Translations under genes and position numbers: made by a program | In this document: one piece after another, positions 30,619 through 55,683 of the stretch | How positions within the stretch are numbered: the first letter of the stretch is position 1 | Layout of the letters: every line of letters begins with the position of its first letter | Assembly: GCF_041200145.1 (NCBI RefSeq) | Contig: NZ_CP165734.1 | Location: forward strand, 1,984,001-2,048,000 | DNA: 64,000 nt | Source of the DNA: Bradyrhizobium sp. LLZ17 | GTDB taxonomy: Bacteria > Pseudomonadota > Alphaproteobacteria > Rhizobiales > Xanthobacteraceae | Direction of reading: 5' to 3' | The notes under the pieces: model-generated | What the model was told of the DNA's origin: nothing | The model's database searches: none | The model's input: only the letters and a program-made list of their open reading frames with translations

Positions 30619-31707
30619 TCAGCTTTGCGAGTTGCGCGCCATGAAATTGTCGTAGCCGACTTCGGCCACCTGGAACCACTGATAGCCGTTGTTCGAGAAG
30701 GCGGTCAGCGAATCGTACACCTTCTTGAAGTCCGCATTCGTGGCCGAAACTTCGGCGTGCAGTTCCTTTGCCGCCTTGAAGCAGGCCTGCATGACCTCGG
30801 GCGAGAACGGATGCAGCTTGGCGCCCGCCGCGAGCAAGCGCCGCAACGCCGGCGGATTGGACTGGTCGTACTTCGCCATCATCCAGTTGTTGGAAGCGTG
30901 CCCTGCCTGCTCGAGAATGCTCTGGTAGTATTTCGGCAGCGCATTCCACTTGTCCTGGTTGACGAAGGCGAGCAGGATCGGTCCGCCTTCCCACCAACCC
31001 GGGAAGTAATAGTGCGGCGCGACCTTGACGAAGCCGAGCTTCTCGTCGTCATACGGGCCAACCCATTCGGCGGCGTCGATGGTGCCCTTCTCCAGCGCGG
31101 GATAGATGTCGCCTCCGGCGATCTGCTGCGGCACTGCGCCGAGCTTCTGCAACACCCGACCGGCAAATCCGCCGATGCGGAATTTGAGCCCGTTGAAGTC
31201 CTGGGGCGTCTTCACTTCCTTGCGGAACCAGCCGCCCATCTGGCAGCCGGTGTTGCCGGCGAGCAGCGAGACGACGTTGTACTTCTTGTAGAACTCGTTG
31301 AGGATCTCCCGGCCGCCGCCCAGCATGTACCAGGCCTGGTTGATGCGCATGTTCGGCCCGAACGGCACGGACGAACCGAAGGTGAAGGTCGGGTCCTTGC
31401 CGAAATAGTAGTAAGACGCCGTGTGACCGATTTCACAGGTGCCGTTCTGCACGGCGTCGAGCACCTGGAGCCCAGGCACGATTTCGCCGCCCGCGAACGT
31501 CTGGATTTGAAATTTGTTGTCGGTCGCTTCCGCCACCATCTTGGCCATCATCTCGGCACCGCCATAAAGCGTGTCGAGCGATTTCGGCCAACTCGTCGGC
31601 ATGCGCCATTTGATCTCCGGCATCGACTGCGCAATCGCCGGAGCGGCAAGCGTCGCGGCGCCGGCCGCACCAAGTCCGGTGACCTTGATGAAGTCTCTTC
31701 TCTTCAT
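30619..31707 (-). CDS. Orphan TRAP solute-binding protein (DctP-like), copy 1
   Basis: 362 residues. Twin-arginine-type signal MKRRDFIKVTGLGAAGAATL, AxA-like cleavage after AIA. The mature part shows the DctP features [40 protein letters not shown] and [20 protein letters not shown], the last containing the region that binds the substrate carboxylate. It has no permease neighbours and resembles copy 2 (36169-37260). The mannitol/chloroaromatic-type label describes the branch only; the ligand is unknown. Confidence 0.92.
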   Translation of the reverse strand: MKRRDFIKVTGLGAAGAATLAAPAIAQSMPEIKWRMPTSWPKSLDTLYGGAEMMAKMVAEATDNKFQIQTFAGGEIVPGLQVLDAVQNGTCEIGHTASYYYFGKDPTFTFGSSVPFGPNMRINQAWYMLGGGREILNEFYKKYNVVSLLAGNTGCQMGGWFRKEVKTPQDFNGLKFRIGGFAGRVLQKLGAVPQQIAGGDIYPALEKGTIDAAEWVGPYDDEKLGFVKVAPHYYFPGWWEGGPILLAFVNQDKWNALPKYYQSILEQAGHASNNWMMAKYDQSNPPALRRLLAAGAKLHPFSPEVMQACFKAAKELHAEVSATNADFKKVYDSLTAFSNNGYQWFQVAEVGYDNFMARNSQS

Positions 31708-31818
31708 GATTTCCTACCCTGATGGATTGTGATTGTGGGCCTTCTTGCCGAGGCTTGGGGAACAGCATGGCGCAAGGCCCGGCCGAATGCCACCGTGATC
31801 GCACTGCGGCAAACAAAA

Positions 31819-31845
31819 AGCCCGGCCTCGGTGGGCGGCCGGGCT
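31819..31845 (-). terminator. Intrinsic terminator for the DUF3551 gene
   Basis: AGCCCGGCC (31819-31827) and GGCCGGGCT (31837-31845) pair around a 9-base loop, with five A residues ending at 31819 forming the T-run on the minus strand. It closely resembles the hairpin at 36114-36141. Confidence 0.75.
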
Positions 31846-35877: not shown

Positions 35878-36113
35878 ATGTGGCAGCAGACGCGCGCCAA
35901 ACACCGATGTCATTGCGGACAGCTCGCGATCAGGCAAATCGTCGCGCCGGCCAATGCTGCACGGCCATTGCCGCTTCTCGTTGATTTTGCTCGACGGCTC
36001 AAGCTGTGGCATGCCCCACAGCGCAACGCGCCCTCGCCCCATTTCTACTGTGCATGGGGTTGTTTTCGATGTTTTTTGTTCGGCACCATGCGGATGCACC
36101 GCCGCAAAGAAAA

Positions 36114-36141
36114 AGCCCGGCCTCGCGAAGGAGGCCGGGCT
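36114..36141 (-). terminator. Intrinsic terminator of the TRAP binding-protein gene, copy 2
   Basis: AGCCCGGCCTC (36114-36124) and GAGGCCGGGCT (36131-36141) form an 11-bp stem with a 6-base loop, followed on the minus strand by TTTTTCTTT. It lies 28 bp after the stop codon. Confidence 0.9.
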
Positions 36142-36168
36142 CTGTTCTGTTGCGACCTGCTCGAACGA

Positions 36169-37314
<1,146 letters not shown>

Positions 37315-45522: not shown

Positions 45523-45999
45523 TCATTGACGTAGCTGATCCACCAGCTCCGCCACACGCTCATCCGCGCGACGGAGGCGGCGACAGAGCTCGCGGTTAAC
45601 ATTTTGAAGCACTATGACATAGGCGCGCGTGTCAGCCTTATAGTAAGTATACAGATTTTGAGCTGTAAGTTCGTAAAGCACGGCTGCAGTCGCTGCCACC
45701 ACCGTTGCCGATCGATTTTGCATTTCGATCAGGGTCATCTCGCCAAAGAAATCCCCTGGCCCGAGATCAGCCGTGTGAATGAGCCCGCCCGAATTGCCTT
45801 GCCTGCGTACCTCAAGCTCTCCTGAATGGACGACGAACATCGACCGACCGGGATCGCCTTGAGCTATAACGATGTGACCTGCTTGGACTCTGCGCTCAAC
45901 CAACATGGGGAGCAAAACGTCGAGACTGGCATCTGAAAGGCCACCGAAGAACGGTGTCGCGAGCAAGAACGCTTTCAGATCGGGAGAGCTGACAGCCAT
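45523..45999 (-). CDS. Cyclic-nucleotide-binding-domain protein without DNA-binding domain
   Basis: 158 residues from ATG 45999 (MAVSSPDLKAFLLATPFFGG). One cNMP-binding-like beta barrel: AGHIVIAQGDPGRSMFVVHS, LGPGDFFGEMTLIEMQNRSA, and VVAATAAVLYELTAQNL, the Gly-Glu and Arg positions of the phosphate-binding cassette (FGEMTLIEMQNRSA) being close to consensus. A C-terminal helix (NRELCRRLRRADERVAELVD) follows and no HTH. It is the last gene on the same strand after the two left peptide genes, 130 bp on, so it likely belongs to the bacteriocin operon. Role unknown: sensor, regulator or self-protection are open. Confidence 0.85.
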   Translation of the reverse strand: MAVSSPDLKAFLLATPFFGGLSDASLDVLLPMLVERRVQAGHIVIAQGDPGRSMFVVHSGELEVRRQGNSGGLIHTADLGPGDFFGEMTLIEMQNRSATVVAATAAVLYELTAQNLYTYYKADTRAYVIVLQNVNRELCRRLRRADERVAELVDQLRQ

Positions 46000-46129
46000 C
46001 GGAATATTATACGCCGCGGCTTCAACGGCAGGCAAGGCGCCCTTCCGGCACGGCTGCACGTAGTCGCAAACGAACGAGGCCGCCGACCGAGGCGACCTCC
46101 AATTCGCGAGCAGCTCCGGGAAAACGAGC

Positions 46130-46357
46130 TCAGAAGGGTGGCTGCCCCGGGCCCGATCCCGGGCCAAACGGACCGCGCTGGTTGCCGGGGCCCTGCAAGC
46201 CGCCAAAGATAAGGCCGCCGACCCATTCGGCAGCGTCTCTGATGGCGCCGCCGATGGCACGGAAGGCGTCGCCGAGCCAGTTGCCGCCGACGACCATTTC
46301 AAGTTCCGCATCGTTCAGTTCGATGATTTCCGATTTTCCATGTTCCAGGTTCAGCAT
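46130..46357 (-). CDS. Double-glycine-leader bacteriocin-like peptide B, left copy
   Basis: 75 residues from ATG 46357 (AGGAG eight bases upstream). The leader of 25 residues ends ELNDAELEMVVGG, a double-Gly leader as cut by C39 peptidases. The 50-residue core starts NWLGDAFRAIGGAIRDAAEW, an amphipathic helix with repeated Gly-Gly pairs, and ends in a Gly/Pro/Gln tail (GPFGPGSGPGQPPF). No Cys. It fits an unmodified membrane-active class II microcin or bacteriocin. It lies 55 bp after peptide A. Confidence 0.85.
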   Translation of the reverse strand: MLNLEHGKSEIIELNDAELEMVVGGNWLGDAFRAIGGAIRDAAEWVGGLIFGGLQGPGNQRGPFGPGSGPGQPPF

Positions 46358-46412
46358 TTCAGTCACTCCTGTTGAGCTGATGTGTGATGAAAAACGTTTG
46401 GACGTGTGGTTC

Positions 46413-46592
46413 TCAGCGGTGGAAGATGCCACCAGGCAACCAGGGGTTCGGGCCCAGGGGCGGTTGCGTCGTGATCTTGCCATTCACGATCCACGGGCCG
46501 ATGCAGCCTCCGTCATTGATGAAGCCACCGCACACGGAGCCCAATTCGCGCTCGTCCAGCTCTCTACGGTCTCGATTGCTGCGCTCAGTCAT
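46413..46592 (-). CDS. Double-glycine-leader bacteriocin-like peptide A, left copy
   Basis: 59 residues from ATG 46592 (GGGAG upstream). A charged leader of 23 residues (MTERSNRDRRELDERELGSV, then CGG) is followed by a 36-residue core starting FINDGGCIGPWIVNGKITTQ and ending in a Pro/Gly/Trp part (NPWLPGGIFHR) with one Cys. Being directly before peptide B, it suggests a two-peptide bacteriocin. Protein sequence identical to the right copy. No homologue is recognised by eye. Confidence 0.82.
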   Translation of the reverse strand: MTERSNRDRRELDERELGSVCGGFINDGGCIGPWIVNGKITTQPPLGPNPWLPGGIFHR

Positions 46593-46672
46593 ATGTGTCT
46601 CCCGCTGTCGAGGAGGGGGACATCCCCTCTCATCTGGTGGTCGCAGGAGTAGCGCGGGCTGCTTCGCTAGGC

Positions 46673-46688
46673 TGTGATGCTTGTCACA
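46673..46688 (-). promoter_or_regulatory. CRP-type palindrome TGTGA-N6-TCACA, left cassette
   Basis: Perfect two-fold site at the outer edge of the left arm, centred 88 bp upstream of the peptide A start. The half-sites match the right-copy box while the spacer differs. Consistent with activator binding; which Crp/Fnr protein binds is unknown. Confidence 0.7.
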
Positions 46689-46811
46689 GAGGCAAGCGAC
46701 TGGCTTTTTTCCGGGAAATGCTCGTCAGCTTCGCACCTGCACTGCAGTTTCGGGAGGCTTGCAAAGATGAAGATTGTTTTCTGGAGGGAATGGACCGTGG
46801 GTTACGGCGGA

Positions 46812-49700
46812 TCAAAGCATCTGCCGCTGCGCGAACGCGGCAAAAGCGCCAGCAGCGGCGGTCAACTCCTCAAAGGTTCCGGCTTCGACGATCTTGCCGT
46901 CGACCAGCACGATGATCCGATCCGCAGTCCTGACGGTGCTCAGCCGGTGAGCGATGACGATCCGGGTGACGTTCAAATTCTCCAACGCATCACTGACGAT
47001 GGCCTGGGATCGATTGTCGAGCGAGCTCGTTGCCTCGTCGAACAGCAAGACGCGCGGACGTCGCGCGATGGCGCGCGCGATCATGACGCGCTGCCGTTGT
47101 CCTCCGGAAAGCGTACTGACGCCTTCGGACACCTGGGTCAGCATGCCCATCGGCATCGCCTTGATGTCTTCTTCAATTCCGGCGAGCCGGGCGGCTTCCC
47201 ATACCTGGTCGAGCGAAAGCCGAACTCCACCGCAGATATTCTCGTAGATGTTCCCGTTCGCGAGCCGAGCACTTTGCAAGACAACGCCGAGCTGGCGCCG
47301 CAAAGCACTTACGTCGAGCGTCTCAATTGATTTTCCGTCGTAGAACACCGCGCCCGACTCCGGTCGCTCGAACCCCAGCAAGAGCCGGAACAAGGACGAC
47401 TTTCCGCCGCCGGATGGACCGACGATCGCGACGTATTCTCCCGGCGCGATCTTCAAGGTGACGTTGTCGAGCACCAGAGGGCCACTCGACAGATACCGGA
47501 AGGACACGCGCGCAAGCTCGATCGAACCGGACAGCTCTCCCGGCGCCTTGCGGTCGTCTGAAATCTCAGTCGGGCTCGCGATCAGAGGCCGCAACCGGAG
47601 CAGCGGGGGTATCGCAATGAGCGCCTCACTGACACCGCCGGCCCAGGAGCCGACCGCACCCATCGATTGCCCGAAGGCGGAAAAGAACGCGAAGAACGTG
47701 CCGAGATCCGTGAGCAGCTTGCTGTTCGAATAGGATGCATAGGCAAAGATGATCAGCGTCGCGATCGTCGGAAATGCCGTCTCGAACGCGCCGAGGCCGT
47801 TGCTGGCAAGTTGCGAGGACACGAAATACTGCTTTTGCGTCGCGAACTGCTTCGACCAGATTCCGAGCGCGCGCCCGGTCGCCCCCGACACCCGCAACTT
47901 GCCGACACCCGTCAGCAACTGGAGAACGAACCCGCTGACCTTGCCCTGCTGGTTGAAGTGCTTGTTCTCGAAATACAGCCGCAGCAGGTTGGTGGAGATG
48001 ATGGCTGCCGCCCTGACGAATGTCAGCCCAATCGCGAGCAACGCCAGCTTCGGGCTGTAGTAGACCATCAAGCCGAGGCTGAAGATGCAGAACAGGCCTG
48101 CGATCATGCCGCGCAATGCGTGGCCCGTCAGCGCACGCCGCGCGGCGTCGATGCCCATCGCGCGGTCGACCAGTTCGCCCGCCGTGAATTCCCGAAAGAT
48201 GGCCGTCGGCAGCCTTAGCAGGCGATCGATCATCGCCGACTGCAATCGCCAGTCGATCGTCGCTTCCATGCGAAGCATGACGAGGCCCTGCATAACCTGA
48301 ACGCCGGCTACCGCCAGAGCCGTCAGGCCCAGCGCGAGCGCGCAGAAGACGAGCTGGTCAAGCTCCGATCTCGGGATGATCGAGCTGATCAGCAGATTGG
48401 TGACAAGGGGCGTCACCAGCGACAGAAGCCCGATGATTACGACCGCCAATGCGATGCGCAGACCGCTACCTCGCGCATAGCGAAGGGCAAATTGAAGAAG
48501 GTCCCTGAACTTCAGGGAGCGTGAGGGCAGCGGCGGATAGAACATCGCCGCTTCCGGAGCGATCTGTGCCGCCACGGCGCGATTGACGGCCGAACGCGCT
48601 TTCGTCAGCGGATCGACCATGATATAGCCGCGGCGCGGCTCGTGGACCAGAGCGACCGGCTCGCGCTTCTCGCCGAACCAGCCGACCAGCGGGCCGGCAT
48701 CGGTTCGCCACCAGTCCGACCGGAGCAGGACCTGCCTTAGCCGCAGACGGGCATCCAGCGCGATTTGCGTCAGGCCAGTGAATTCCTGCCGGCTGCCCTC
48801 GACCCGGCCTGAGATCGCAATTGGTGTGCGCATCGCGCTTCCGACGAGTTGGCAGGCGCCGGCCAGACGGTCGGAATATGATGCATCGACCGCGTCATGA
48901 TCGAAGCGCCGCACGATGATGCCGGACAGGCGGTCGAAGGCTTCGATGGACTGCGACGCCGCGAGAGTGGTCCGGCTGACCAGGCGCTCGCTCTCGCCCA
49001 CCCTCTCATTGGCCAGAATGCGTTGGACGCAGGCCACGAAGCTCTGGTGGAACTGATCGATTGCCGGCCAGATCGAGGCCGGCATTACGCCGGCTGCGAC
49101 TACGCCACACCCTTCCTCGCCCGCCTCGACCCACAAGCCAGAGGTGAGCGGCAGCGGCTGGCTTCCAGCGGCGCAAGAAACGGCAACGCCCATCAGCCTG
49201 AGGACGCCGCGCTCCACCGTCAGCCAGAGCAGTCCACGCATGGGTCCCCGGCCGCATTCGTTCGGGAGCAGTTGGGCTTCGCCCACCGGCAACTCCGTCA
49301 TTTGCCACAACGGCGCAGGTCCAGCGACGAAGCGCGCCAGCCGCTCGATCCAGCGGGTGGCCTGAGCTGCCGATGTGCGATCAGACCGGGCGTGCGCAGA
49401 CGCGCGCGTGCTGTCGGTGCCGACCGCGATGAAGCTCACGCCGCGTCCTGCCGAGACCGCGAGCGCCGGGAGATCGGGGACGACATCGCCGCTTTCGATC
49501 CGAAACAGATGGTGTCTGCTCCCGTATTCCCCATCCTCGACATCCACGGCGAAGATGTCCAGATGACCGGCGACGACCTCCAACACATGGCCGTGGTGAT
49601 CGAGCCGGATAGGCCTGCGACCATCGAGCGTCATGTCGATCGGAAGCTCCGCCGAGACGAGGCTCGCGCAGGACACGATGTTTTCAGCCGAATGGATCAT
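46812..49700 (-). CDS. NHLM-type ABC exporter without peptidase domain (ABC2-like)
   Basis: 962 residues from ATG 49700, which overlaps the ABC1 stop (ATGA). The first about 430 residues are unusual: a beta-rich, cupin/cNMP-like part (HGHVLEVVAGHLDIFAV, then FRIESGDVVPDLPALAV) and a helical section. They are followed by six transmembrane helices and a nucleotide-binding domain with Walker A GPSGGGKSSL, signature STLSGGQRQRVMIARAI and Walker B LLFDEATSSLD. The layout fits the second ABC component of NHLM bacteriocin export systems. Together with ABC1 and HlyD it should export the peptides. Confidence 0.9.
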   Translation of the reverse strand: MIHSAENIVSCASLVSAELPIDMTLDGRRPIRLDHHGHVLEVVAGHLDIFAVDVEDGEYGSRHHLFRIESGDVVPDLPALAVSAGRGVSFIAVGTDSTRASAHARSDRTSAAQATRWIERLARFVAGPAPLWQMTELPVGEAQLLPNECGRGPMRGLLWLTVERGVLRLMGVAVSCAAGSQPLPLTSGLWVEAGEEGCGVVAAGVMPASIWPAIDQFHQSFVACVQRILANERVGESERLVSRTTLAASQSIEAFDRLSGIIVRRFDHDAVDASYSDRLAGACQLVGSAMRTPIAISGRVEGSRQEFTGLTQIALDARLRLRQVLLRSDWWRTDAGPLVGWFGEKREPVALVHEPRRGYIMVDPLTKARSAVNRAVAAQIAPEAAMFYPPLPSRSLKFRDLLQFALRYARGSGLRIALAVVIIGLLSLVTPLVTNLLISSIIPRSELDQLVFCALALGLTALAVAGVQVMQGLVMLRMEATIDWRLQSAMIDRLLRLPTAIFREFTAGELVDRAMGIDAARRALTGHALRGMIAGLFCIFSLGLMVYYSPKLALLAIGLTFVRAAAIISTNLLRLYFENKHFNQQGKVSGFVLQLLTGVGKLRVSGATGRALGIWSKQFATQKQYFVSSQLASNGLGAFETAFPTIATLIIFAYASYSNSKLLTDLGTFFAFFSAFGQSMGAVGSWAGGVSEALIAIPPLLRLRPLIASPTEISDDRKAPGELSGSIELARVSFRYLSSGPLVLDNVTLKIAPGEYVAIVGPSGGGKSSLFRLLLGFERPESGAVFYDGKSIETLDVSALRRQLGVVLQSARLANGNIYENICGGVRLSLDQVWEAARLAGIEEDIKAMPMGMLTQVSEGVSTLSGGQRQRVMIARAIARRPRVLLFDEATSSLDNRSQAIVSDALENLNVTRIVIAHRLSTVRTADRIIVLVDGKIVEAGTFEELTAAAGAFAAFAQRQML

Positions 49701-51856
49701 TCCTGCGACACCAGCCTTGCATATTCGCCGTCGAGGGCCAGCAGGCTCTCGTGCGTCCCGCGCTCGACGACCTTGCCCTGTTGCAACACGACGATCTCGT
49801 CGCAATCCCTGATCGTGCTCAGACGATGTGCGATGATGATGCAGGTGCAGCCGGTTCGGCGCAGATTGTCGTCGATCGCCTTCTCCGTGACCGGATCGAG
49901 CGCGGCCGTGGCTTCATCGAGAACGATGACGGAGGGGCGGCCGACGAGAGCACGCGCGATCTCGATGCGCTGACGCTGCCCTCCGCTGAAATTCGTTCCA
50001 CCCTCGCTGACGTAAGTATCGTAACTGCCGGTCCTGATGGCGATCTCGTCCTGGATCTGCCCGTCTTTCAGTGCCCTGGTCAGATCGAGGTCCGGCGTCG
50101 TCCGGTCCCAAAGCGTGAGATTGTCCCGCACCGTGCCCTCGAACAGGAAAATATCCTGGTCCACGTAGGCGATCGAGTTGGCGAGGATCTCGGGCGGGAC
50201 GTCCCCAAGCGGGACCCCGTCGATCAGGATCTCGCCGACCCACGGCTTGTTGAGGCCGCAAATCAGGCGGCCCAGCGTCGATTTACCGCTTCCGGATGCG
50301 CCGACAAGCGCGACGCGCGATCCCGGACTGACGGCAATCGAAAGGTCTGCGATCAGCGGAGGTTCGAGCAGCGAATAGCCGAACTGCACGTTTCTCAGTT
50401 CGACGCGTCCGGCGAGCTTTGCGGGGAAACGCCTTTCGGATCCGCCCTCCTTCGGCTTGTCGCCGAGCGGATAGTTGTAGACGTCTTCAAGGCGATCGAG
50501 CGCACCCCGGATCAATTGAAAGCCGCTGGCCTGGTTGACCAGCATTGCGACGGGGTCCGAGAAGCTTGCCATCAGGGACTGGAATGCGACGAGGCTGCCG
50601 AGCGTCAGCGACCCTTCAGTCACCCGCAAACCTCCAAGGATGAGGATCGCCGTCACGGTCAGTCCGGAAATCAGGGTCGGGATCATGTCGAGCATGATCG
50701 ACGACGAGGCGAGCTCGCGCTCGGCGTTGAGAAGCTTGGCCTGAACGCCGGACCATTGTCCGAACGCCTCGTCCTCGAGCCCGCTTGCCTTGATCGTCTC
50801 GATGGTCCTGACGATGCTGACCACCGCCCCGAGCGACTTTCCTCGCTCTTGTGAGAGCCCGCGACTGAGGTCCTCGCGACGCCGGTGCGAAAGCCGCAGG
50901 AACAAAACGTTGAGCAGCGACAAGGCAATGCAAATCGCGGCAAGCCAGAGATCATAGACCGCCATCGCGAACGCAAAGAACACGACCGAGGTAAGATTGA
51001 GCACGTTCGCCGCAATTCCGCCCGCAAGCAGCCGCGCGATCTGCTCGTTGGCCAGGACGCGCGTCGCGATGTCTCCGGCGTGGCGTTGAGTGAAGAACTC
51101 CATCGGCAATGCCATCACCCGCCAGAGAAACCGGCTGATCATCACAACCGATAGCTTCGTCTGCAGTCTCAGCAGCAGGGATTGCTGGAGCAGCGTCAGG
51201 ACCGTACGGATCAGTGCGGTGATGGCCATCCCGACAAGAAGGGGACGCAACCACCCGTCCAAATGCTGGATCAGGACGTCGTCGATGAAGATCTTCGAGA
51301 AGCTCGCAGCGACAAGGCCCGGAACAACCGTGACGAAGCTGAGCAGGACGAGAAGTCCGACGGCAGATTTCGAGCCGCGCAGCTCGCGGACGAGGAGGCG
51401 CAGTCCGCCGGGCTTGCTTCCTTGCGCGACGAACCCGGCCGCGGGCTCCATGGTGAGCACGACACCGGTGAAACTCCTGTCGAGTTCATCGATGCCGATT
51501 CGCCTTCGCCCAAAGGCGGGGTCGTTGATATAGGCGAACTTGCCGTCAATTCCGTCGAGAACGACGAAGTGATTAAAGTTCCAGTGAATGATGCAAGGCG
51601 TCGGCGTTGTGCGAAGTGTTGCGACCTCCTGCCGAAATCCCTTGGCAGACAGGCCGAAGCGCCGTGCGGCCCTGACGACGTTGCTCGCCTTGCTGCCATC
51701 GCGTGACACGCCGCATTCGACACGCAACTGCTCGAGCGGCACCCAGCGGCCATAGTGCGCCAGCACCATGGCAAGACAGGCCGCGCCGCATTCCGCCGCC
51801 TCCATCTGCAGGACGGTCGGCGTTTTCTTCACTCCTGGAGTTGGAGACCTATCCAT
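49697..51856 (-). CDS. C39-peptidase ABC exporter for bacteriocin (NHLM ABC1-like)
   Basis: 719 residues. N-terminal C39 peptidase domain with Cys23 (LQMEAAECGAACLAMVLAHY), His96 (HFVVLDG) and Asp112 (INDPAFG), all three catalytic residues present. Six membrane helices follow, then an ATPase with GASGSGKSTL, FSGGQRQRIEIARAL and IVLDEATAALD. It should cut double-Gly leaders and export the cores across the inner membrane. ATG 51856 overlaps the HlyD stop by 8 bp. Confidence 0.95.
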   Translation of the reverse strand: MDRSPTPGVKKTPTVLQMEAAECGAACLAMVLAHYGRWVPLEQLRVECGVSRDGSKASNVVRAARRFGLSAKGFRQEVATLRTTPTPCIIHWNFNHFVVLDGIDGKFAYINDPAFGRRRIGIDELDRSFTGVVLTMEPAAGFVAQGSKPGGLRLLVRELRGSKSAVGLLVLLSFVTVVPGLVAASFSKIFIDDVLIQHLDGWLRPLLVGMAITALIRTVLTLLQQSLLLRLQTKLSVVMISRFLWRVMALPMEFFTQRHAGDIATRVLANEQIARLLAGGIAANVLNLTSVVFFAFAMAVYDLWLAAICIALSLLNVLFLRLSHRRREDLSRGLSQERGKSLGAVVSIVRTIETIKASGLEDEAFGQWSGVQAKLLNAERELASSSIMLDMIPTLISGLTVTAILILGGLRVTEGSLTLGSLVAFQSLMASFSDPVAMLVNQASGFQLIRGALDRLEDVYNYPLGDKPKEGGSERRFPAKLAGRVELRNVQFGYSLLEPPLIADLSIAVSPGSRVALVGASGSGKSTLGRLICGLNKPWVGEILIDGVPLGDVPPEILANSIAYVDQDIFLFEGTVRDNLTLWDRTTPDLDLTRALKDGQIQDEIAIRTGSYDTYVSEGGTNFSGGQRQRIEIARALVGRPSVIVLDEATAALDPVTEKAIDDNLRRTGCTCIIIAHRLSTIRDCDEIVVLQQGKVVERGTHESLLALDGEYARLVSQE

Positions 51857-53114
51857 CGATCCCGGTCAGCTTCCTGAGGAGAGGAATAACGAGATCCAGC
51901 GGGCGCCGGTTTCGGGTGGTGATTTCGGCTTGGGCGAGCGTTCCGCTGGTCAGGTGAACCTGCGGTCCCTTGCCAACGGCCCATCGATAGCCGCTCGTCG
52001 TCGAGTCGTCCCGCTCCAGGGACACGGCGACGGCATAGGGCGCGCCGTCGTGGGAGAACACCTTAACCAGCTGGTCATTGTGGAGCACCGCAGTCATGCC
52101 TTGCGGAGTCACGGGAAACTCCGACACGCTCGAGACGGTCCCGATCATCGTGCCGAACTCCTCGCGCTTCACGGTGCTGGGTGCGATGCGGACCTGGGAG
52201 CCCGGCTTGACGCTCTTGCCCTGCTCGGCGGGGACATAGATCACCGCCTCGAGCTTCGAGCCCTCGTCTTCAATCAGGACGACCGGCGTACCGACGGCGA
52301 GCACCGAACCAGTCGATATCTTGGTTTCGAGCACGCGCCCCGTAATCGGACTGAGAACCTGAGAATTGCGCCCCAGGGTTCCAGCCAGCGCCTGCATCTC
52401 TCGGCGCGCATTATTGGCCGCGAACTCGGCCTGCTGCAATTCATGCTCGCGCTGCGTTTCGAGATCGGATTGCTGGGCGTGCAGCTTGAGAATCTCGTTT
52501 TGCGAATCCGTCCGGCGCTGCTGCGCCTCGGTCAACTCAAGACGGCGATCTTCCAGCGTCTTCCGCGTGGTCAGCCCTTTGGCCATAAGCTGCTCGAGAT
52601 TCTTCACGTCGAGGTCCAGCGACTGAACGCGCTGCCCGGTCGCCTCGATGACCTTGTTGAAGGCGGCTTCCAGCTTTTGGAGATTGGAGACCTTGACCGA
52701 GAGTTCCGACCTGACCTTTGCGGCCATTTCGTCGTGCTCGCGCTGGCGTTCCTTGTAGGTCTCCACCGCATCTGCGTACTTCTGCTCGATGTCGGTTTGC
52801 GAAATCTGGGCAATCAACTGGCCCCGTTCGACATGGTCGCCAACGGAAATGCTGAGCGAAGCGAGCCGTCCTTCCGCGGCAGAGACTGCATCGACGACGC
52901 GGCCGCTGCCGACCAGAATTCCCTGTCCCGATACACGCGAGGGAATCCGGCCGTAGATTCCCCAGACGAGCGCCGCCACCAGTGCGGCCGTCACGACAAG
53001 CGCCAGGATCCAGTCGGCCGGCTTGGTGATAGAGACGAGATGGTCGAGTTCGTCGGGCGACGCCGCGCGTTGCAACGCGCTGGCACGGAAAATACGTTCG
53101 GGGCCATCATTCAC
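51849..53114 (-). CDS. HlyD-family periplasmic adaptor (NHLM HlyD-like)
   Basis: 421 residues. One membrane helix (WILALVVTAALVAALVWGIY), lipoyl halves around GRVVDAVSAAEGRLASLSIS and NSQVLSPITGRVLETKIS, a long coiled coil between (about residues 115-245), and a beta-barrel C-terminus. It connects the ABC exporters to the outer membrane. No TolC-like gene is present, so a housekeeping outer-membrane channel is probably used. First gene of the exporter operon. Confidence 0.93.
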   Translation of the reverse strand: MNDGPERIFRASALQRAASPDELDHLVSITKPADWILALVVTAALVAALVWGIYGRIPSRVSGQGILVGSGRVVDAVSAAEGRLASLSISVGDHVERGQLIAQISQTDIEQKYADAVETYKERQREHDEMAAKVRSELSVKVSNLQKLEAAFNKVIEATGQRVQSLDLDVKNLEQLMAKGLTTRKTLEDRRLELTEAQQRRTDSQNEILKLHAQQSDLETQREHELQQAEFAANNARREMQALAGTLGRNSQVLSPITGRVLETKISTGSVLAVGTPVVLIEDEGSKLEAVIYVPAEQGKSVKPGSQVRIAPSTVKREEFGTMIGTVSSVSEFPVTPQGMTAVLHNDQLVKVFSHDGAPYAVAVSLERDDSTTSGYRWAVGKGPQVHLTSGTLAQAEITTRNRRPLDLVIPLLRKLTGIDG

Positions 53115-53359
53115 GGCTCAATCCCCCGCAAATCATCTGGGCGCAACCGCTTGTCGTTGGTCAAATCGGCGTTAAACGCCCGGAGTATGCTCCGATGATA
53201 CATAGGAGCCGTTAGTGGCACAACGGGTCGCGACGAGCCTTGCCGGCCAAGACGCGCGCGGCTTTGCGGAAAATACGATTGAGCGATCGGTTGTGCGGCG
53301 CTAAGCTCACGCGGAGAATTTCACGGATTTGTCGGGGCAAAGGACGTCGAGCGCCTCAA

Positions 53360-53887
53360 ATGAGATGGCAAGCGGATAGCGTCCCACTTACCGCAACGGC
53401 GCGTGTGGTCGTCACTCGACTAGTGTGGCAATGCCTTGGATTGCTGGTCGCAACGAAAGTATGCCTGGCCGGAGTCCTGAGCCCGGCTGAATTGAAGAGA
53501 GTCGAAGATCTGAGGCCGATGTTTGCCGGCTTGATGGCAGACCTCGTCCAGACCTCGAAGCGGACCGACATACCCGCCGTCGAAGCAGATTGCGTCAAGT
53601 CCACCGTTCAAAATCTTGTCGAGATTTCCCAAGAGCTGTCCAGTTTCGAATATCTGATTACGATCGAGAAGGAACTAACGAGCGTCAGCGAGAATGACCC
53701 GACCCGCGGCGTGGTGAAATTTGCCATCGACCAGTCGACCAATATTCTTACCAGCCAGCGCAGAAAGATTGCGCAACTTCCCGATCAATGCGCCAGGTCG
53801 GCTTTTGCGTTGGCCAAATCCCAGCAGGCCCTGCAGGTTGTCGACGCGGCGACCGGAGTTTTGAATTCCATTCGCTCCCGGCTTTGA
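53360..53887 (+). CDS. Secreted helical protein next to the right peptide cassette
   Basis: 175 residues from ATG 53360, with a signal-like helix (VVVTRLVWQCLGLLVATKVC) and a helical mature part (SPAELKRVEDLRPMFAGLMA, IPAVEADCVKSTVQNLVEIS, IEKELTSVSENDPTRGVVKF) with two Cys that could pair. Start choice is uncertain. It reads away from hlyD towards the right cassette, about 250 bp before the right peptide A gene. Periplasmic immunity or accessory factor is a context guess. No family recognised. Confidence 0.65.
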   Translation: MRWQADSVPLTATARVVVTRLVWQCLGLLVATKVCLAGVLSPAELKRVEDLRPMFAGLMADLVQTSKRTDIPAVEADCVKSTVQNLVEISQELSSFEYLITIEKELTSVSENDPTRGVVKFAIDQSTNILTSQRRKIAQLPDQCARSAFALAKSQQALQVVDAATGVLNSIRSRL

Positions 53888-54045
53888 GGCATGTGCGCGC
53901 TGGTCGCGATTCCTGAGCGCAACCGCTCGGCGCTTCGGGTCAAAACCTGCAGTTAGGAAGCTCCGGTAACTCGGCGAAAGCTACCACTCCTCCGACGCAC
54001 CCGCCGCGAGGCCAATTCGTTCCCCCTCCTGCTTGAGAGCGCTCC

Positions 54046-54061
54046 TGTGACCCGCCTCACA
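54046..54061 (+). promoter_or_regulatory. CRP-type palindrome TGTGA-N6-TCACA, right cassette
   Basis: TGTGACCCGCCTCACA at the outer edge of the right arm, centred 88 bp upstream of ATG 54142, same spacing as on the left. Spacer differs from the left box (CCCGCC against CAAGCA) but both half-sites are exact. Confidence 0.7.
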
Positions 54062-54141
54062 GTCTAAAGAAACCGCCCGCGGTACTCCTGCGATCACCAG
54101 ATGAGAGGGGATGTCCCCCTCCTCGACAGCGGGAGACACAT

Positions 54142-54321
54142 ATGACTGAGCGCAGCAATCGAGACCGTAGAGAGCTGGACGAGCGCGAATTGGGCTCCGT
54201 GTGCGGTGGCTTCATCAATGACGGAGGCTGCATCGGCCCGTGGATCGTGAATGGCAAGATCACGACGCAACCGCCCCTGGGCCCGAACCCCTGGTTGCCT
54301 GGTGGCATCTTCCACCGCTGA
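54142..54321 (+). CDS. Double-glycine-leader bacteriocin-like peptide A, right copy
   Basis: 59 residues from ATG 54142, protein identical to the left copy. Leader ends ELDERELGSVCGG; core has a single Cys and Trp/Pro/Gly-rich end. The gene follows its own CRP-type box and is divergent from the exporter operon, so it must be served in trans by the exporter. Confidence 0.82.
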   Translation: MTERSNRDRRELDERELGSVCGGFINDGGCIGPWIVNGKITTQPPLGPNPWLPGGIFHR

Positions 54322-54376
54322 GAACCACACGTCCAAACGTTTTTCATCACACATCACCTCAACAGGAGTGACTGAA

Positions 54377-54604
54377 ATGCTGAACCTGGAACATGCAAAA
54401 TCGGAAATCATCGAACTGAACGATGCGGAACTTGAAATGGTCGTCGGCGGCAACTGGCTCGGCGACGCCTTCCGTGCCATCGGCGGCGCCATCAGAGACG
54501 CTGCCGAATGGGTCGGCGGCCTTATCTTTGGCGGCTTGCAGGGCCCCGGCAACCAGCGCGGTCCGTTTGGCCCGGGATCGGGCCCGGGGCAGCCGCCCTT
54601 CTGA
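54377..54604 (+). CDS. Double-glycine-leader bacteriocin-like peptide B, right copy
   Basis: 75 residues from ATG 54377 (AGGAG eight bases upstream). Same as the left copy except Ala for Gly at leader position 7 and a silent change near the end. The core (NWLGDAFRAIGGAIRDAAEW and Gly/Pro tail) is identical, so the mature product should be the same. Confidence 0.85.
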   Translation: MLNLEHAKSEIIELNDAELEMVVGGNWLGDAFRAIGGAIRDAAEWVGGLIFGGLQGPGNQRGPFGPGSGPGQPPF

Positions 54605-54790
54605 GCTCGTTTTCCCGGAGCTGCTCGCGAATTGGAGGTCGCCTCAGTCGGCGGCCTCTTTCGTTTTGGGCTCTAACAGCACGGTTGACCATTGCGAGCT
54701 TGCGATCGGGATGAAGTTCATTGGCCGCAGTACCCAAACGATCTAAGGTGCGTCGCGTAGTTGCCCGTAGATCGGAATGGCCAGGGTGTG

Positions 54791-55683
54791 ATGAGCAAGC
54801 CTAGAACGAGTGGCGGAAAAGGCTTATTGGCGGCAACCGCCGTGAGCGCAAGCCTGCTCCTGAACACCTATGCAGCGACAGCTCAGAACAGTCAGCCAGC
54901 GCTTTCTTCGGAGCAAATCGGCCAGATCGTGAAGAGCGCTGATCGCACTGCAGCAGATCGAACCAACGATCAACGGCGCAAGCCTGAGCAGATGCTTGCG
55001 TTCATCGGCATTCGTCCGGTATCGTCGCACTCGATCTCAGCGCGGGCGGAGGCTACACCACCGAGCTGCTTGCTCGGGCAATCGGGCCCTCGGGTAAAGT
55101 TTACGGTCAGAGCCGGCCGCGTGACCCCAATCAGGCCCCGACGCCCCGCGTCGCACCAGAGGGCAACAGTAACCCGACCACCACGCCGAGCGCGGCGCCT
55201 GCAGCGCCAGCAAGCACACCACGCCCGTCCCCTGTCGCCCTCGCCGAACGTGATAACAATCTCCGAAGCAACGGCGTCCCGGCCGCACCCATCGTTGCGC
55301 TCTCCCGACCGTTTGAAGACCCCGTTCCATCCGAGCTTGCGCCAGAACGCCTCGATCTCGTGACCCTGATGTTCAACTACCACGACCTGGGACACCTCGG
55401 CGTCGATCGCGCGGCCATGAACAAAGCAGTCTTTCGCGCGCTCAGGCCGGGAGGCCTTTACGTCATTGCTGACCATTCGGGTCGATCTGGTACCGGCATC
55501 TCCGAATCCGGCACTTTGCATCGGATCGAACAAGCGTTTCTTCAGCAGGAAGTCGAAGCGGCCGGATTCAAGCTGATCGAACAAGGCGATTTCCTGCGCA
55601 ATCCGAACGATCCCAGAGATAAAAATACACCCGATCCGCCCCAACCCAAGGACGAATTCGTGCTCAAATTCATGAAGCCTTGA
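54791..55683 (+). pseudogene. COG4798-like secreted SAM-dependent methyltransferase, split by a single-base frameshift
   Basis: ATG 54791 reads a signal segment (GLLAATAVSASLLLNTYAAT) and DRTAADRTNDQRRKPEQMLA, then FIGIRP. Adding one G to the GG at 55018-55019 joins it to GIVALDLSAGGGYTTELLAR (SAM-binding motif) and a frame running to 55683 through DLVTLMFNYHDLGHLGVDRA and LRPGGLYVIADHSGRSGTGI. About 297 residues. Substrate unknown. It lies just outside the bacteriocin cassette. Decay or assembly error. Confidence 0.83.

Follow-up and report, generated by a model that had tools for sequence, protein, structure and literature searches.

We describe a pair of short double-glycine peptides, pepA and pepB, whose genes form two mirror-image cassettes on either side of an NHLM-type exporter in Bradyrhizobium sp. 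LLZ17. The locus lies in a stretch of 64,000 nucleotides (contig NZ_CP165734.1, positions 1,984,001 to 2,048,000), hereafter the window, to which plain coordinates refer. In the explanation that we favour, and consider probable with some reserve, pepA and pepB are an unmodified class II-like peptide pair that is cut and exported by this exporter and belongs to a CRP-type regulon whose cargo cassettes are scattered. An original prediction, made from the letters of the window, had proposed a bacteriocin island here. The genes are as it described them, but it had missed the second copies of pepA and pepB, a divergent gene (orf215), the CRP-type box, and the existence of such exporters with other cargo. 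The features of the module are as follows.

46068..46689, minus strand: left arm (622 nt) of the inverted repeat, holding the whole pepA-pepB cassette next to ABC2; complementarity of 98% to 54045-54666
54045..54666, plus strand: right arm, holding the whole pepA'-pepB' cassette on the side of orf215; partner of the left arm
46413..46592, minus strand: pepA, 59 amino acids (aa); leader ending in SVCGG, then a core of 36 aa that has a single invariant Cys
46130..46357, minus strand: pepB, 75 aa; leader ending in MVVGG, 50-aa core with a Gly/Pro-rich tail
54142..54321, plus strand: pepA', protein identical to pepA
54377..54604, plus strand: pepB', differing from pepB by one residue, in the leader
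46673..46688: CRP-type palindrome TGTGACAAGCATCACA, 80 bp before pepA, with exact half-sites
54046..54061: CRP-type palindrome TGTGACCCGCCTCACA, 80 bp before pepA', with exact half-sites
46076..46099, minus strand: terminator-like hairpin that closes the left cassette on its outer side; stem of 9 bp, fold z -2.7
54634..54659, plus strand: terminator-like hairpin that closes the right cassette on its outer side; stem of 10 bp, fold z -2.3
51849..53114, minus strand: HlyD-type membrane fusion protein; TIGR03794, 306.4 bits (cut-off 156.2)
49697..51856, minus strand: ABC1, a C39 peptidase/permease/ATPase, that is, a peptidase-containing ATP-binding cassette (ABC) transporter (PCAT); TIGR03796, 1034 bits (cut-off 853.3), and PF03412
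46812..49700, minus strand: ABC2, a permease/ATPase without peptidase and with a long N-terminal extension; TIGR03797, 846.8 bits (cut-off 709.4)
53360..53887, plus strand: orf215, a helical and apparently secreted protein in which two Cys are invariant; its gene is divergent from HlyD and lies between HlyD and the right cassette

The two arms are separated by 7355 nt, and a search of the whole genome (one contig of 7,803,520 bases) found both of them and no third place. The pepA-pepB cassette lies downstream of ABC2, while pepA'-pepB' lies on the opposite side of the exporter and reads outward. Each cassette runs from a CRP-type box at its inner edge through pepA and pepB to a terminator-like hairpin at its outer edge. 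T-rich sequence follows each hairpin, and for each of them 3 of 200 shuffled sequences fold equally well. The left and right boxes differ at the six spacer bases and have identical half-sites.

The exporter had been assigned to the NHLM type, and all three of its proteins exceed the curated NCBIfam cut-offs of the corresponding models. The minus-strand order proposed for HlyD, C39-ABC, ABC without peptidase, pepA, pepB and a cyclic-nucleotide (cNMP)-domain protein agrees with the coordinates of the open reading frames (ORFs). The expected stop/start overlaps are also present, as 8 bp between HlyD and ABC1 and as an ATGA at 49700-49697 between ABC1 and ABC2. For ABC2 the ATG at 49700 fits, the automatic ORF-list start at 49805 being too long. 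The catalytic residues Cys23, His96 and Asp112 of the C39 domain are found at the positions given for them and match the equivalent Cys, His and Asp in an alignment with a solved C39 exporter (4ry2). The alignment of ABC1 with the solved exporters PCAT1 and ComA (4ry2, 8hf4) spans its full length; both of those are single polypeptides, whereas ABC1 presumably works together with ABC2 and HlyD.

In the peptides, the double glycine that had been read as the end of the leader is invariant in 36 pepB rows and, as G22-G23, in 11 pepA rows. With short leaders of this kind beside an exporter that has the C39 triad, both peptides have the features of double-glycine (PCAT) substrates. Subtraction of the leaders (59-23 and 75-25) gives cores of 36 aa for pepA and 50 aa for pepB, the lengths first estimated. 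The ATG of pepB is at 46357-46355, and the references used in pepB searches started one codon later. Conservation in other genomes had been named beforehand as a test of the peptides, and we found 9 homologue clusters for pepA and 41 for pepB, with the pair beside the exporter in nine genomes. The ratio of nonsynonymous to synonymous substitution rates (dN/dS) in the cores is 0.11 for pepA and 0.15 for pepB (ratio of medians, 145 pairs), which shows purifying selection on both cores and, on this codon-level evidence, marks them as real genes. Because the exporter lies above the NCBIfam cut-offs, homologues form 9 and 41 clusters and core dN/dS is 0.11 and 0.15, the combination of exporter and peptides is not a chance one.

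The statement that the cores resemble nothing recognised agrees with Pfam and NCBIfam, in which neither peptide has a match above any cut-off. The pepB peptide resembles an amphipathic helix that carries a Gly/Pro tail, and pepA is rich in Gly and Pro and has an invariant Cys. A GxxxG motif can be found by eye in both cores (GLIFG in pepB, GGCIG in pepA), but both cores are Gly-rich. Among NCBIfam matches of pepA and pepB up to an E-value of 0.1 there is no NHLP (nitrile-hydratase-like) or Nif11-like leader family, and we rejected NHLP/N11P precursors on this ground; thus only the exporter is NHLM-type. The claimed absence of a maturase was upheld in Pfam and NCBIfam scans of the nine ORFs of the module, in which none was found, the remaining ORFs of the window having been listed only.

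Among 195 Bradyrhizobium genomes, 12 have pepB, one of them weakly (G190). The pepA gene adjoins the exporter at 6 of 46 loci in a first set and at 7 of 28 in a second, which after overlap amounts to nine different genomes. In every one of these pepA is present on both sides, and in none on one side only. Besides LLZ17, two-sided carriers include B. iriomotense SZCCT0346, B. sacchari p9-20, B. manausense BR 3351, B. zhengyangense WYCCWR 12774, sp. CCBAU 51627, sp. cir1 and an uncultured Bradyrhizobium bin. Further genomes carry pepA-pepB, or only pepB, at sites away from the exporter, and many genomes have the exporter without the pair and with other double-glycine peptides instead.

The cassettes were compared in six genomes that carry both. 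Within a genome, the two copies are 98-100% identical in pepA, 98-100% in the spacer and 93-100% in the pepB leader (93% in one genome, G083), compared with between-species means of 87%, 69% and 87-88%, respectively; for one genome (G110) identity in the box segment is 68%, which is low because the contig ends there. In a tree of pepA, spacer and leader, the two copies of one genome are sisters in five of six cases, the exception being G083, which falls beside G110. Grouping by side was rejected for these segments (approximately unbiased test, p-AU 1e-6 with all six genomes and 3e-9 with four; one set of identical rows left free). These comparisons show, at the nucleotide level, that pepA, spacer and leader evolve in concert between the two cassettes of a genome. 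The pepB core follows another pattern: its copies are 90-93% identical within four genomes and 99% within LLZ17 (G000) and G034, compared with 88-90% between species, and the core tree places the ABC2-side cores of four species together (support 91/83). These patterns fit gene conversion acting mainly in the 5' two thirds of the cassette, with the core part of this statement suggestive.

The exporter segment has also changed its orientation. When sp. cir1 is compared with B. iriomotense, the cNMP-bearing flank is found on the side of ABC2 in one genome and of orf215 in the other (677 bp, 93.5% identity). The opposite flank has changed sides too (142 bp, 88.7%), and no match is obtained in the unswapped pairings. 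In cir1, the FIAGG variant of the pepB core keeps the same outer flank. At the level of flank comparison, this shows an inversion of the exporter segment between cir1 and B. iriomotense. A second pair of genomes, G061 and G063, has one flank swapped likewise (about 4.25 kb, in three pieces). The orf215-side flank of B. sacchari was left out of these comparisons, its locus starting too close by.

The inverted cassettes could be an old duplication for dosage, with inversion a rare and neutral by-product that has no present role. We regard this as evenly poised between true and false, and it is compatible with our preferred explanation, in which it denies only a role of flipping. Inversions were observed between species only, and both cassettes come with a promoter-like box and a hairpin, so that a flip alters nothing obvious. 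On the other hand, two-sided cassettes in nine genomes and one-sided cassettes in none are more regular than a loose dosage effect needs.

The CRP-type box connects pepA and pepB to further cargo. We searched for it as TGTGA-N6-TCACA with at most one mismatch. Of 19 pepA rows, 18 have it at 93-98 bp upstream of the pepA start, exactly in 8 and with one mismatch in the others; the sole boxless row ends with its contig and represents the same cassette as another row. All seven lone pepB loci have a box. In 60 fetched loci, a box is present 55-125 bp upstream of 52 of 112 ORFs with double-glycine leaders, compared with 0 or 1 such ORF for each of 29 control palindromes made from a permuted half-site. 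By a count made by eye, more than half of the boxed ORFs (28 of 52) are neither pepA nor pepB, and their cores are of at least ten dissimilar kinds. Furthermore, the exact pattern occurs at 11-27 sites per genome in 31 genomes of the genus, versus 0-2 for the reversed pattern. To judge from these counts, the box is a real but general operator, and we infer that it is bound by a CRP-like protein. Another box in LLZ17 precedes an ORF with a cyclase domain, which suits a cyclic AMP (cAMP) regulon.

The box also has predictive use: genome-wide boxes in LLZ17 yielded, besides the two pepA genes, one further leader-bearing ORF (G000:C1:1277488-1277664). This ORF (L173:1597-1773) encodes a 59-aa double-glycine peptide that begins exactly 80 bp after its box and is followed by cassette-like hairpin-forming sequence. 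Its peptide was found in one of the 195 genus genomes, its own, with no conservation elsewhere. A different box (L126, G000:C1:1285861-1285876) lies where a YcaO gene (PF02624, 302 bits) begins. Three exporter loci of other species (L095, L099, L100) hold tandem arrays of near-identical double-glycine peptides (core FFDLSNLSNNIV...), and a box precedes the first copy of each array. At locus L093 a box at -1117 from HlyD lies between a double-glycine peptide and a divergent cNMP gene, and both may share it.

In the mechanism that we propose, a CRP-type promoter would drive a joint transcript of pepA and pepB that ends at the hairpin, and both products would be double-glycine precursors that undergo no modification. 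The C39 domain of ABC1 would cut the leaders after the double Gly, cleavage at this site and export being general to C39 exporters, and ABC1, ABC2 and HlyD would export the cores with a TolC-type outer channel encoded elsewhere, perhaps together with secreted orf215. Outside the cell the cores would most likely act as a class II-like peptide pair. The cassette would have been duplicated inversely across the exporter before these species diverged, after which homologous recombination between the copies would keep their 5' two thirds identical by gene conversion and at times invert the exporter segment. With a promoter and an end in each cassette, the peptides should still be expressed after an inversion. 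The same kind of exporter would serve other CRP-boxed cassettes, nearby or elsewhere in the genome. The sequence itself shows the architecture, its conservation, the concerted evolution, the inversion between species and the conservation of the box, from which we infer cleavage, export, CRP-like regulation and the functions given here to the peptides and orf215. A bolder version, in which the exporter segment is still actively flipping in living populations with cargo genes as its arms, and one CRP-type operator marks scattered interchangeable cassettes that use this exporter, seems to us quite unlikely.

Class II microcins and bacteriocins with PCAT export have a short double-glycine leader, C39 cleavage and an unmodified small core. 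The Bradyrhizobium system resembles them in its short double-glycine leaders, C39 exporter, small cores without maturase and two adjacent peptides (compare PMC10233263). It departs from them in points that weigh against our reading. The net charges of the cores are about 0 and +1 by a count made by eye, that is, nearly neutral. The class IIb model TIGR03949 scores 12.9 and 13.5 bits versus a cut-off of 21.5, and the known class IIb two-peptide family was rejected because both peptides lie below that cut-off. No immunity gene was recognised beside the peptides in inspection of the ORF list or in the Pfam and NCBIfam scans. The orf215 gene is unlikely to be a pepA/pepB-specific immunity gene because it also accompanies exporters with other cargo. 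With regard to the regulon, 60 of the 112 double-glycine ORFs have no box in the span tested; many of these are second genes of pairs or members of arrays, and some have no such excuse. Three loci (L083, L086, L088) have boxes beside exporters and no double-glycine peptide found adjacent, and only 3 of 38 boxed places in LLZ17 (18 exact and 20 one-off boxes) have a leader-bearing ORF. With regard to recombination, the core tree does not differ significantly from within-genome pairing (p-AU 0.078 and 0.144), the second swapped flank of cir1 and B. iriomotense measures only 142 bp, and only one flank of G061 and G063 was testable, the G063 contig ending 1 kb away. We still consider a class II-like pair most likely, with a bacteriocin as first choice and a signal as second.

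As signals (pheromones), the peptides would belong to a cyclic-nucleotide circuit and not be antimicrobials; the box would tie their production to cAMP, and the cNMP protein would be part of the circuit. The gene for this protein lies outside the repeat, beyond the hairpin.

45523..45999, minus strand: cyclic-nucleotide-binding-domain protein; PF00027, 75.1 bits

The ATG at 45999 is a more likely start for it than 46311, the latter being inside pepB. A signalling role would account for the box before the peptide genes, for the L093 box between a double-glycine peptide and a divergent cNMP gene, for the cNMP proteins that adjoin several of these exporters, and for nearly neutral cores with no recognised immunity gene. 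However, no receptor candidate was identified, and among the nine inverted-repeat loci, three of the first set (L024, L025, L026) and two of the second (L143, L144) gave no cNMP match near the exporter. The cores of pepA and pepB vary little (dN/dS 0.11-0.15) while those of other cargo vary strongly, which suits a mixed arsenal equally. Taken together, we hold a purely signalling function to be unlikely. The cNMP protein scores 30.5 bits with TIGR03896, the model for bacteriocin-type transport-associated cNMP proteins, below its cut-off of 161.05. An anti-phage system was rejected, since PADLOC matches of this protein span the cNMP domain alone (best 47.5 bits, to TIR effector models); PADLOC gave no match for orf215 or the peptides.

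That the repeats are the ends of a composite mobile element carrying the exporter is very unlikely: flanks of the module sides differ between species and pepA-pepB cassettes occur alone at many places, but no transposase or integrase was noticed by eye among the listed window ORFs (with no family scan), the arms hold the peptide genes themselves and end at the control box and hairpin, related exporters with orf215 and without arms are common, and pepB has no match among 72,556 plasmids, for which reason a plasmid-borne system was also rejected. It is similarly improbable that a maturase encoded elsewhere modifies the peptides, making them ribosomally synthesised and post-translationally modified peptides; maturases can be unlinked, this genome has a YcaO gene elsewhere and the pepA core has an invariant Cys, but the nine module ORFs scanned include no maturase and the cores contain few Ser, Thr and Cys residues.

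The orf215 gene is a fourth conserved member of the module. It is present in 47 of the 195 genus genomes, compared with 57 for HlyD, and in all 47 it is divergent from HlyD and 87-478 bp away; ten other HlyD genomes are without it. Family-model scans, including Pfam and NCBIfam, gave no family match. Its AlphaFold2 model is of moderate confidence (mean predicted local distance difference test score, pLDDT, 73.4; predicted template-modelling score, pTM, 0.65) and predicts a helical bundle, for which a known fold was rejected because no PDB match reached an E-value of 0.001 or less (best 0.2) and the matches are generic helical bundles. Because orf215 accompanies the exporter irrespective of cargo, an export or envelope role appears likelier for it than specific immunity. 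A scan of 297 genomes of the order found orf215 in two, both Bradyrhizobium, and wider spread in the order was rejected; among the named records there are also metagenome bins whose label is of a rank above the genus.

A three-gene NHLM/NHLP exporter, TIGR03794-TIGR03796-TIGR03797, has been described (Haft et al. 2010, PMC2887384), and all three Bradyrhizobium exporter proteins resemble it closely enough to exceed the cut-offs. The present system differs in that its precursors have no NHLP or Nif11-like leader, a modification enzyme is absent, orf215 is conserved as a fourth gene and mirror-image cargo lies on both sides. Cyanobacterial bacteriocin clusters (Wang et al. 2011, PMC3140520) likewise combine a C39-ABC, an ABC without peptidase and HlyD with short double-glycine precursors around them; their precursor families are other ones, and the accessible part of the paper describes no inverted flanking pair or CRP-type box. 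Bradyrhizobium japonicum USDA 110 serves there as a tree outgroup. NHLM-type exporters with double-glycine peptides and no maturase are already known (PMC2887384, PMC3140520). In our literature search, with most subscription papers outside it, we found no description of flanking mirror-image cassettes that undergo conversion and inversion, of a CRP-type operator common to unrelated cargo, or of orf215.

For a genus of soil and root nodules, this provides a concrete, testable cargo system: an exporter, the leader of its precursors, a control element by which additional cargo peptides can be located from sequence, and an accessory protein predicted to be secreted. In the mirror-image cassettes, nature offers an example of cargo genes driving both concerted evolution and the inversion of a segment. 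Should the peptides prove to kill rhizobia or to carry signals among them, the system would be relevant to competition for roots and nodules.

A more distant exporter branch (L111-L119, HlyD 51-53%) is without orf215 and, in the stretch fetched, without a box at up to one mismatch, and has a cNMP-domain match (28-31%) directly after ABC2. Elsewhere in the window, an apparent methyltransferase remnant to the right of the right cassette (54761-55683) shows shifts of reading frame by eye in the ORF list. Two related stretches (30619-31844 and 36044-37260) match the same places of loci L030 and L032 at 72-88%, which suggests paralogous genes, and one of the two adjoins a CRP-type box at 31422-31437.

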